A DNA stretch of 63,546 nt from Nitrososphaeria archaeon (GTDB taxonomy: Archaea; Thermoproteota; Nitrososphaeria; JACIWG01): the NCBI GenBank assembly GCA_026413865.1, contig JAOAKB010000007.1:1-63546 (forward strand). The letters are read 5' to 3'. The position numbers and the translations under genes are program-made. This document shows, piece by piece, positions 10,163 through 38,392 of this stretch. The notes beneath the pieces were generated by a model. That model worked only from the letters and a program-made list of their open reading frames with translations. It had not been told where the DNA came from and searched no databases. The number at the start of each line of letters is the position of its first letter. Position 1 is the stretch's first letter.

Positions 10163-10378
10163 TCATTTTTTCTTTTTCTTTTCACCCACATAGTTCATAG
10201 GCTTACTGCAATGCAATGGAATAGGTTGAGAAAAATCACATGATTCACATTCGATTTTAACTACTCTCTTTTTAATAAAGCCTTCCTTAATAGGCCTCAT
10301 AGGAACACCATGATGGAGGGGAACAGGTTTTCTAAAACCACATACTTCGCACACAAATTCTGGTAACTGTTCACCCAT
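10163..10378 (-). CDS. Small double zinc-ribbon-like protein made of two repeats
   Basis: This 71-residue protein is built from two copies of one motif: CEVCGFRKPVPLHHGVPM near residue 10 and CESCDFSQPIPLHCSKPM near 44. The repeat can be written CxxCxFxxPxPLHxxxPM. Cys and His placement suggests one metal per repeat or one site shared between them. The C-terminus is a run of lysines. Small archaeal proteins of this type are annotated as hypothetical, and I do not assign a function. It lies convergent with acdA (6-nt gap). Upstream AT-rich DNA (10379-10440) could hold its promoter. Confidence 0.75.
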   Translation of the reverse strand: MGEQLPEFVCEVCGFRKPVPLHHGVPMRPIKEGFIKKRVVKIECESCDFSQPIPLHCSKPMNYVGEKKKKK

Positions 10379-12019: not shown

Positions 12020-12403
12020 ATGGCTATAATAAATGTACCTTCAGGATTACTAAAAACAATAATTTTGAAGGAAGCATCAAGAGCACCACTTTCTGCAATA
12101 AAATTAATTGACAAGATGGCTGAAAGAACAGGTGGAATATGGAAACCAAGTCCAGGCTCAATATATTATTTAACAAACGAGCTTGAAACCAAAGGGCTTC
12201 TGAAAAAATTAAAGGTAGAAGAAGAAAAATATCCTAAGTACATAATAACTCAAAAGGGAAAAGAAGAACTTGAAAACATAATCACCTCTTCTAAAAAAGA
12301 TATACTGAAGATACTTACAATATTAAAACTGTATGCTGAAACAATAGAAGATCAACACCTTATACAAAATCTTGAGATAGTCTGTAAGAGTATACTGATT
12401 TAA
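12020..12403 (+). CDS. PadR family transcriptional regulator
   Basis: This 127-residue winged-helix protein has the PadR layout. KTIILKEASRAPLSAIKLID forms the first helices, PSPGSIYYLTNELETKGLL is the recognition helix region near 50, and the wing follows (EEEKYPKYIITQKGKEEL). A C-terminal helical segment would mediate dimerisation. PadR proteins usually repress a neighbouring transporter or stress gene. Here none is obvious: xylB lies 35 nt upstream on the same strand, and an RNA-like region follows. A TATA-like TTTTTTATAT at about 11988-11998 would give a short leader. Confidence 0.88.
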   Translation: MAIINVPSGLLKTIILKEASRAPLSAIKLIDKMAERTGGIWKPSPGSIYYLTNELETKGLLKKLKVEEEKYPKYIITQKGKEELENIITSSKKDILKILTILKLYAETIEDQHLIQNLEIVCKSILI

Positions 12404-12410
12404 AAAAATG

Positions 12411-12731
12411 AATTCTACTCTAGAAGAGGGCTCATGCGTCCTGTTTCCCTCAGAAACAGATTTCTTGTCCCCTCCCTTCCTACTCACCGTTTTTAACCGA
12501 AAGCTTCAGGTCAACCCATCCACTTTCGGTAGTCTAGTTGTCTAGACCACGGCTTGTAGTCCGTTTGAGGACTTGAAACCTATTTCCTTGGGAGGAAACG
12601 GCTTTGTTGAAGGCTACGGACAGGGGGTTCCCATCATCCACCTCCCGGGCGGAGGATGCATGCGCATGGCCTGTCTTTCGCCTTCAACTTGGCCGTTTGC
12701 CAAGGACGCACGAGCTCAGGCCTATACTCTA
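12411..12731 (-). ncRNA. Large GC-rich structured non-coding RNA of unidentified family
   Basis: About 300 nt with far higher GC than the flanks fold into many exact helices. A 13-bp terminal helix joins 12430-12442 to 12703-12715. Others are 12606-12614 with 12680-12688 (9 bp), 12619-12624 with 12670-12675, 12487-12492 with 12596-12601, 12497-12503 with 12523-12529, 12532-12537 with 12542-12547, and 12441-12447 with 12453-12459. Strand choice rests on mismatches: at least five sites are A-C on the plus strand but G-U on the minus strand. Seven Ts (minus, 12402-12408) follow as a likely terminator. I could not find the SRP helix 8 motif or the RNase P CR-I/CR-V motifs, so no family is given. 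Confidence 0.75.
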
Positions 12732-12838
12732 TTTTAGTAATTTTATTGTTTGAGGAAAAACTTTGTCAACTGTATTGTAAAATAAATTTAAGTAATTCTC
12801 ATGCTCCTTTACTCTAAAATATTATGGATTTTTGGATT

Positions 12839-13141
12839 TCATTTTAATATGGCTGATTTCTTATATTCTATTGATATATGCTTGTCTCTTCGTTCATCAA
12901 TCTTAATGACCATATAAACTCTTTTTGCACCCATTTCAAAAAGCGCTTCTTTAGCCTTTTCGAAGGCTTTAAAAATTTCTTCAGTCGTTTCAGCTTCAAC
13001 TGATGTTGACATGGCACCTACATCAACCTTTAAGCCAGCCTTCTTTAATTCTTCAACAGCTCTTTTCACATATTTGCTTAAGCTTGTACCTTCCCCAACA
13101 GGCATTATAGAAAGGTCAGCTACCACTGTCATACATATCAA
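12839..13141 (-). CDS. MTH1187-family thiamine-binding protein (YkoF/DUF77-like)
   Basis: This 100-residue protein matches the MTH1187/YBL001c family, ferredoxin-like fold proteins that bind thiamine or its pyrimidine moiety. It shows the N-terminal strand VVADLSIMPVGEGTSLSKYV, the segment KVDVGAMSTSVEAE, and the helix EIFKAFEKAKEALFEMGAKRVYMVIKIDER. Family length is normal. In bacteria related YkoF proteins sit with thiamine transport genes; here the neighbours are unrelated. The start could be this residue or the nearby M4. Its product may connect with ThiN at 42.6 kb, but that is inference. Confidence 0.85.
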   Translation of the reverse strand: MICMTVVADLSIMPVGEGTSLSKYVKRAVEELKKAGLKVDVGAMSTSVEAETTEEIFKAFEKAKEALFEMGAKRVYMVIKIDERRDKHISIEYKKSAILK

Positions 13142-37279: not shown

Positions 37280-38392
37280 CTAAGATAACAGTTGCACATT
37301 CCCTATTCTAACATTCTTCAAATATCTTTTCGCTATTTCATAGCATTCACTAGCATGTTTACTTCTAGTTGTTGGAAGGTCATATAACATATACTGTGGA
37401 TAGAACGCTAACAATGTGTATGGAATATTTGGATCTAGTTCTGAAAGAAATTTTGAAATTTTTTCAACTTCAAAAGAATCAATATATCCTGGTACTAGGA
37501 GAGTGCTTGCAGTTAATAGTGGAACTTCTGGACGAAGATGATAATATTTTTGGAAAATTTGTTTAAAGTTTTCTAATACCTGATCATTTGACACACCACA
37601 TAAAACATTGTGTAATATTGGATCCCAAGCTTTTATATCAAATTTGATTATACCACCAGTTTTTAGGGAGAGTTCAGCAGCTTTTTTCGCAAGATCCCTA
37701 TTCATATAGCCATTTGTTTCCCAACATATTCTTAAAATATTGCCTTTTTCAACTGATTTTTCAAGCGCTATTTCACTTACTCTTATTGCATGCAAAATTT
37801 GGGGAGAAGGATCCCCACCAAAATAGCATATGCATGAAACTTTCTTATCAACCTTTGATGCAAGCTCTTCTGCACTAACTGTAGGCTGCCTTTTAGATGC
37901 AAGCCGCCTATAATGCCAATTTTGACAATATAGACAATCAAAAGAGCAAGCACCATAGAAAACGGCTAAATTTTTGTACCCAATTTCTGCTGAAGGCATG
38001 TTAGCATATTTTGGAAAACCTAAACCTGTACATCCTGGACAGAACCATTCTGCAACACAGTTTGTTGGTAATGGGTCATAATACCATTCTAGTATACCCT
38101 TTGATGAAGTTCCACCATATCTCACTAATTTACCATCCACATTCTCAACTAGGCCACAGTATCCAATTTTTCCCTTCGAAATTCTACAATTGTTAGCGCA
38201 TAAGGCACATAATATGCCATCTTTATCCTTTGGCACAGTAGTTGGAAGACCAAACAGTTTACGACTTTTTGCGTGAACATTTTGAGAAAAACATAGGGCT
38301 TCTTCAGGCCTATTTCGAATACAGTCAAGACACAACCCTATTTCTTTAGAAATTGTTTCAGAAAATCTGTCACATAATTTACATTTGCTCAA
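37280..38392 (-). CDS. Radical SAM protein, AmrS/PflA-like, with N-terminal cysteine clusters
   Basis: This 370-residue protein has the radical SAM cluster C149-x3-C153-x2-C156 in GACSFDCLYCQNW, and CYFGGDPSPQ downstream as the SAM-binding GGE-like motif. Before it, LCALCANNCRISKGKIGYCG (about 61-80) and an N-terminal CKLCDRF plus CLDC give four cysteine pairs, probably zinc or extra Fe-S sites. The layout resembles COG1180 activating-enzyme relatives such as the AmmeMemoRadiSam protein AmrS. The substrate is unknown, and no Memo or AMMECR1 gene is adjacent. It lies downstream of the MFS gene on the same strand. Confidence 0.85.
   Translation of the reverse strand: MSKCKLCDRFSETISKEIGLCLDCIRNRPEEALCFSQNVHAKSRKLFGLPTTVPKDKDGILCALCANNCRISKGKIGYCGLVENVDGKLVRYGGTSSKGILEWYYDPLPTNCVAEWFCPGCTGLGFPKYANMPSAEIGYKNLAVFYGACSFDCLYCQNWHYRRLASKRQPTVSAEELASKVDKKVSCICYFGGDPSPQILHAIRVSEIALEKSVEKGNILRICWETNGYMNRDLAKKAAELSLKTGGIIKFDIKAWDPILHNVLCGVSNDQVLENFKQIFQKYYHLRPEVPLLTASTLLVPGYIDSFEVEKISKFLSELDPNIPYTLLAFYPQYMLYDLPTTRSKHASECYEIAKRYLKNVRIGNVQLLS

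Follow-up and report, generated by a model that had tools for sequence, protein, structure and literature searches.

We conclude, from comparison across related genomes, that positions 12425-12719 on the minus strand of the window (the whole 63,546-nucleotide stretch of DNA analysed, from a Nitrososphaeria archaeon) constitute a real structured noncoding RNA gene with a predicted transcript, and that this gene very probably represents a family not previously described. The gene and its immediate surroundings are as follows.

12425-12719, minus strand: structured noncoding RNA; the extent is approximate, with the 5' start taken from the distance to a TATA-like box and the 3' end from the limit of sequence conservation.
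12741-12746, minus strand: TATA-like box ATAAAA, invariant, starting 29-30 nt upstream of an AGCTC that borders the closing helix P1 in 5/5 genomes.
12020-12403, plus strand: gene of a PadR-family regulator, in convergent orientation to the RNA in 5/5 genomes; context, outside the RNA.
12839-13141, minus strand: gene of the Thiamine-binding-protein family, upstream of the RNA in the genus but replaced in the other-genus genome (G004); context.

A GC-rich noncoding RNA gene apparently restricted to one family

GC content reaches a peak of 0.535 over 12500-12699, against approximately 0.28-0.40 in the flanks, and is 53.1% for the RNA itself. The minus strand of this island folds with a z-score of -9.03, so that an initial annotation of the window, which had described a GC-rich structured RNA amid AT-rich DNA, is borne out. 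Insertions and deletions of one or two nucleotides separate the homologues in a five-sequence alignment (A3), which argues against a coding explanation.

When 100 related genomes were searched at the DNA level, one copy each turned up in three genomes of the same genus and in one genome of a second genus (G004), all in the same family. Identity over the RNA is 93.8, 92.8, and 92.1% within the genus and 69.0% for G004. A sixth DNA match (L006, in G095) lies in apparent coding sequence and was judged to be chance, and two 18-mer matches in bacterial MAGs (L053 and L056) show no agreement with the covariance model beyond the 18-mer itself. That model, R1, finds the RNA in 5/5 genomes of the family, as a single copy in each. 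Neither 395 further genomes of the class nor 397 others sampled from the phylum (a set partly overlapping that of the class) gave a full-length match to it, and laxer filters applied to 32 genomes of other families likewise returned no full-length match. As far as tested, the RNA appears restricted to its family, on the strength of a model that was built on five sequences and would miss very distant relatives; such a restriction disfavours a universal housekeeping role.

In a genome from a different family of the class (G013, L061:1226-1610), a GC-rich island of approximately 380 nt lies between two coding regions and is helix-closed by CTTGAGCCC/GGGCTCAAG. R1 scores 20 bits there, to arm A (described below) only, and the remainder does not align; the fold has a z-score of -3.95 on the minus strand, and a search of three further genomes from its family turned up no relative of the island. 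It may be another unannotated structured RNA.

Conserved secondary structure

Comparison of the five sequences shows that the predicted secondary structure is conserved, with P1 opening into two long arms. Its elements, all on the minus strand, are listed here.

12703-12715, minus strand: P1 closing helix (helix 1), 5' strand, 13 bp; all cells (100%) are paired, with a double change in one pair and a one-sided change in three.
12430-12442, minus strand: P1 closing helix, 3' strand, pairing with 12703-12715.
12594-12701, minus strand: arm A, a rod of stacked helices 2-5, with 9 pairs changed on both sides.
12643-12650, minus strand: arm A apical 8-nt loop, GCCCGGGA, with AUCCGGAG as the G004 version; in both, a 6-nt palindrome between two purines.
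12446-12593, minus strand: arm B, a rod with a terminal three-way junction, helices 6-12, with 11 pairs changed on both sides.
12531-12548, minus strand: arm B hairpin with a GCAA/ACAA tetraloop (loop at 12538-12541); helix 10, 100% paired, with both-side changes.
12496-12530, minus strand: arm B hairpin whose loop, GAUGGGUUGACCUGAAG, hardly varies; the loop contains a tandem G-A motif, with a GAUG/CUGA core resembling that of a C/D box.
12490-12496, minus strand: invariant UUAAAAA at the arm B junction, from the five-sequence alignment.

The consensus from alignment A3 contains 100 pairs in 12 helices. The 13-bp terminal helix that the initial annotation had placed at 12430-12442 and 12703-12715 proved exact, as all 13 pairs form in 5/5 sequences, and where at least six internal helices had been claimed the consensus has eleven besides P1. 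Across the alignment, 95.8% of cells are paired, compared with 38-46% when partners are slid by one to three columns, and double changes affect 21 pairs, compared with 1-3 in the slid controls. Because the consensus fold was derived from the same five sequences, a less circular test was added. When the fold of the window copy alone is imposed on G004, 84 of 104 pairs are kept and 20 show double changes; when the same substitutions are instead placed randomly on the window sequence, over 2000 trials, 66.6 +/- 3.4 pairs are kept (maximum 78) with 6.6 double changes (maximum 14). Both observed values exceed all 2000 simulated controls. The G004 copy folded independently has a z-score of -7.2 and shares 78 pairs with the fold of the window copy. 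Compensatory changes, which had been proposed as a check on relatives, are therefore present, with the covariation resting mainly on the divergent G004 copy, as four of the five sequences are nearly alike. An alternative fold possible in the genus, with local hairpins in the basal part of arm B, is missing from G004, which keeps the long helix.

Putative expression signals and the convergent PadR gene

The ATAAAA box is positioned as expected of an archaeal TATA box, with a putative transcription start at the edge of P1. The seven Ts that the initial annotation saw following the RNA are indeed present (12402-12408), but they do not form a conserved terminator, since congeners have only T-rich tracts and G004 has no T run.

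The PadR gene is the sole neighbour kept in 5/5 genomes, and its end lies a few tens of nucleotides from the 3' end of the RNA; the protein is 81-92% identical within the genus and 64% in G004. This constancy speaks for a regulatory RNA whose target would be the convergent PadR gene or other mRNAs, through antisense pairing or an effect at the 3' end. We nevertheless regard such a role as unlikely. There is no overlap between the RNA and the PadR coding sequence, the fold of the RNA is extensively double-stranded and offers no long conserved single-stranded guide, antisense action needs no such large fold, and in other families no such RNA accompanies the PadR homologues. More generally, riboswitch, leader, and antisense roles are all disfavoured by the large conserved double-stranded arms, by the scarcity of unpaired conserved stretches, by the lack of any single strand of guide length, and by the absence of a same-strand downstream gene before the convergent PadR gene. 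We favour instead, on balance, a putative function as a stable structural RNA of a ribonucleoprotein (RNP) over one as a regulator.

Two observations concern neighbouring genes in other settings. On contig C20 of genome G019, a PadR-like gene and an RNase P RNA gene (37739-37951 and 38079-38365) lie approximately 130 nt apart. In the window itself, an open reading frame of 71 aa at 10163-10378 on the minus strand, flanked by a CoA-ligase-like gene and an FGGY kinase gene, encodes paired CxxC motifs (zinc-ribbon-like) and has no Pfam match.

Candidate sites for protein binding and dimerization

Within the arm B loop GAUGGGUUGACCUGAAG, GAU and UGA allow G-A, A-G, and U-U pairing of the kind found in C/D box cores. 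L7Ae, a protein that all archaea possess and that associates with numerous noncoding RNAs (PMC5539422), is the first candidate protein for this site because of the GAUG/CUGA core, and L7Ae-family genes are present in 5/5 genomes. The strands flanking the loop are symmetrical, however, without the 3-nt bulge of a standard kink-turn, so the loop is not a standard kink-turn and binding of L7Ae is open to doubt; we put it forward tentatively, as something that may occur.

The same GAUG/CUGA core, together with the L7Ae genes, could suggest a guide RNA of H/ACA or C/D type with an enlarged body. This is very unlikely. The C-like box is only about 8 nt from the D-like box, which leaves too little room for a guide, no ANA box was seen at the RNA's 3' end in the five sequences, and no Rfam guide-RNA family matches above chance. 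A C/D box guide in particular was rejected on the spacing between boxes, where approximately 10 nt would be needed, and on the missing 3-nt bulge.

The core of the arm A apical loop reads CCCGGG in the genus and UCCGGA in G004, and is self-complementary in both. Two copies of the RNA might therefore pair through this loop into a kissing dimer, a proposal we consider somewhat doubtful: the changes from G-A to A-G and from C-G to U-A would also fit an intramolecular pair closing a CCGG tetraloop.

Strand, known RNA families, and mobile elements

The alternative that the conserved element belongs to the plus strand, within the 3' UTR of the PadR gene, draws on a plus-strand z-score of -6.1, better than shuffled sequence, but a structured RNA invariably has a reverse complement that folds reasonably well. 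Support for the minus strand comes from its folding z-score (-9.03 vs -6.14), from the R1 score (360 bits, compared with 50 bits for a partial match on the opposite strand), from the presence of G-U in some sequence at 23 of 100 paired column pairs while A-C occurs at only 7 of 100, and from the TATA-like box upstream. These four lines of evidence support the minus-strand assignment made at the outset and leave a plus-strand element highly improbable.

A cmscan of the window against all 4227 families of Rfam 15 gave no match at gathering score, and at E-values up to 10 the window copy and the G004 copy drew only chance-level matches to snoRNA, miRNA, and cis-element families. The Rfam search proposed by the initial annotation thus matched no family, RF00373 and RF01857 included. 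The window contains no tRNA or tmRNA. That annotation had left two choices, an RNase P RNA that had diverged or an RNA not described before, and the second is the one that stands. A diverged or second-copy RNase P RNA or signal recognition particle (SRP) RNA would have fitting size, GC richness, and a terminal closing helix, and neither RNA is matched in the window's own assembly (1.45 Mb in 102 contigs, 77% complete); taken alone, this absence would have favoured a diverged RNase P RNA. However, among relatives that carry the new RNA, RNase P RNA is encoded at other loci in three of four (G002, G003, and G004, with E-values of 1e-56 to 1e-62) and SRP RNA at separate loci in all four (G001-G004). 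The proposed check for other copies was accordingly positive in the relatives and negative in the incomplete home assembly, where absence is most simply explained by incompleteness. Because both RNAs lie elsewhere in the genomes of the same relatives, the idea of a single-copy diverged RNase P or SRP RNA is refuted, and we assign the whole alternative a very small probability.

Comparison of architecture agrees. Archaeal RNase P RNA (RF00373) is likewise about 300 nt with a long closing helix, but the new RNA does not match its model, and no long-range pairing of at least 4 bp between unpaired stretches was found conserved in all five sequences, so there is no P4-like pseudoknot. Archaeal SRP RNA (RF01857), also approximately 300 nt and closed by its ends, has one domain with a terminal three-way junction and two hairpins, one with a GNRA-type loop; here too the new RNA does not match the model, and the true SRP RNA is elsewhere in relatives. 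Separately, genome G002 contains, besides its strong RNase P RNA match, a second and weaker one (contig C6:4875-5163, 81 bits, below the cut-off), which is either contamination or a second copy.

Flanking copies of TACTCTA had been noted as either chance or a target duplication; they are chance, since the window has 18 occurrences of the heptamer where 10.5 are expected (shuffles reach 18), including a third one at 12810, and the relatives lack both flanking copies, though the RNA holds the same position there. A mobile element or intron remnant with these repeats as its target duplication is thus refuted, its probability negligible, by the fixed position beside PadR in one copy in each of 5/5 genomes, by the repeats being lacking in relatives and frequent in the window, and by a search of phage DNA, plasmid DNA, and viral contigs that found nothing above chance 17-mers.

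Discussion

Large structured noncoding RNAs are rare, and those of known function have fundamental tasks in catalysis, targeting, and translation. Among GC-rich intergenic islands of AT-rich hyperthermophiles, the hgc RNAs (HgcC, HgcE, HgcF, and HgcG) came from screens of GC content. The RNA described here resembles them in being a GC-rich intergenic island in an AT-rich archaeon, found by composition alone and folding stably, but it has no Rfam match, belongs to another lineage, and has a two-arm architecture of approximately 300 nt.

We infer that the RNA is probably a free-standing, trans-acting structured molecule, about 300 nt in length, which an archaeal promoter of its own would express from the minus strand and which would serve as a scaffold. 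In this mechanism, transcription from that promoter would release the RNA to act in trans as a structural or RNP scaffold, a protein, with L7Ae as first candidate, would bind arm B, and the apical loop of arm A might pair with a second copy of the RNA to give a kissing dimer.

Such a mode has parallels among large bacterial RNAs. OLE RNA has a protein partner in YbxF/OapC, which recognizes kink-turns (PMC9723947), and can dimerize as RNA alone (PMC12286853); like the new RNA it is large and ornate, of unclear function, and found in extremophile hosts, and the suggested likeness in mode, a kink-turn protein plus a dimer, is for the new RNA a proposal only. Unlike the new RNA, which does not match the OLE model, it is approximately 600 nt and bacterial. 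GOLLD and ROOL are large structured RNAs assembled through RNA-RNA contacts that include kissing loops, with intermolecular covariation (PMC12286853). Pairing by kissing loops may also occur in the new RNA, but GOLLD and ROOL are much larger and bacterial, and the new RNA has no Rfam match. A lineage-specific RNA machine of unknown class, dimerizing through arm A and binding proteins through arm B in the style of OLE, with a function carried out by no known RNA, is conceivable, though we think it rather improbable.

The claim of novelty concerns the family to which the RNA belongs; large orphan RNAs in general are already known. The family combines a fold supported by covariation, a promoter-like element, and strict single-copy conservation, yet it has no Rfam relative and no relative in several hundred other genomes sampled from the class and the phylum. 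It is thus a candidate new class of RNA, approximately 300 nt long and encoded as a separate gene in this archaeon and its close relatives, in which the conserved arm B loop and the arm A palindrome provide concrete sites at which questions of protein binding and dimerization may be asked.
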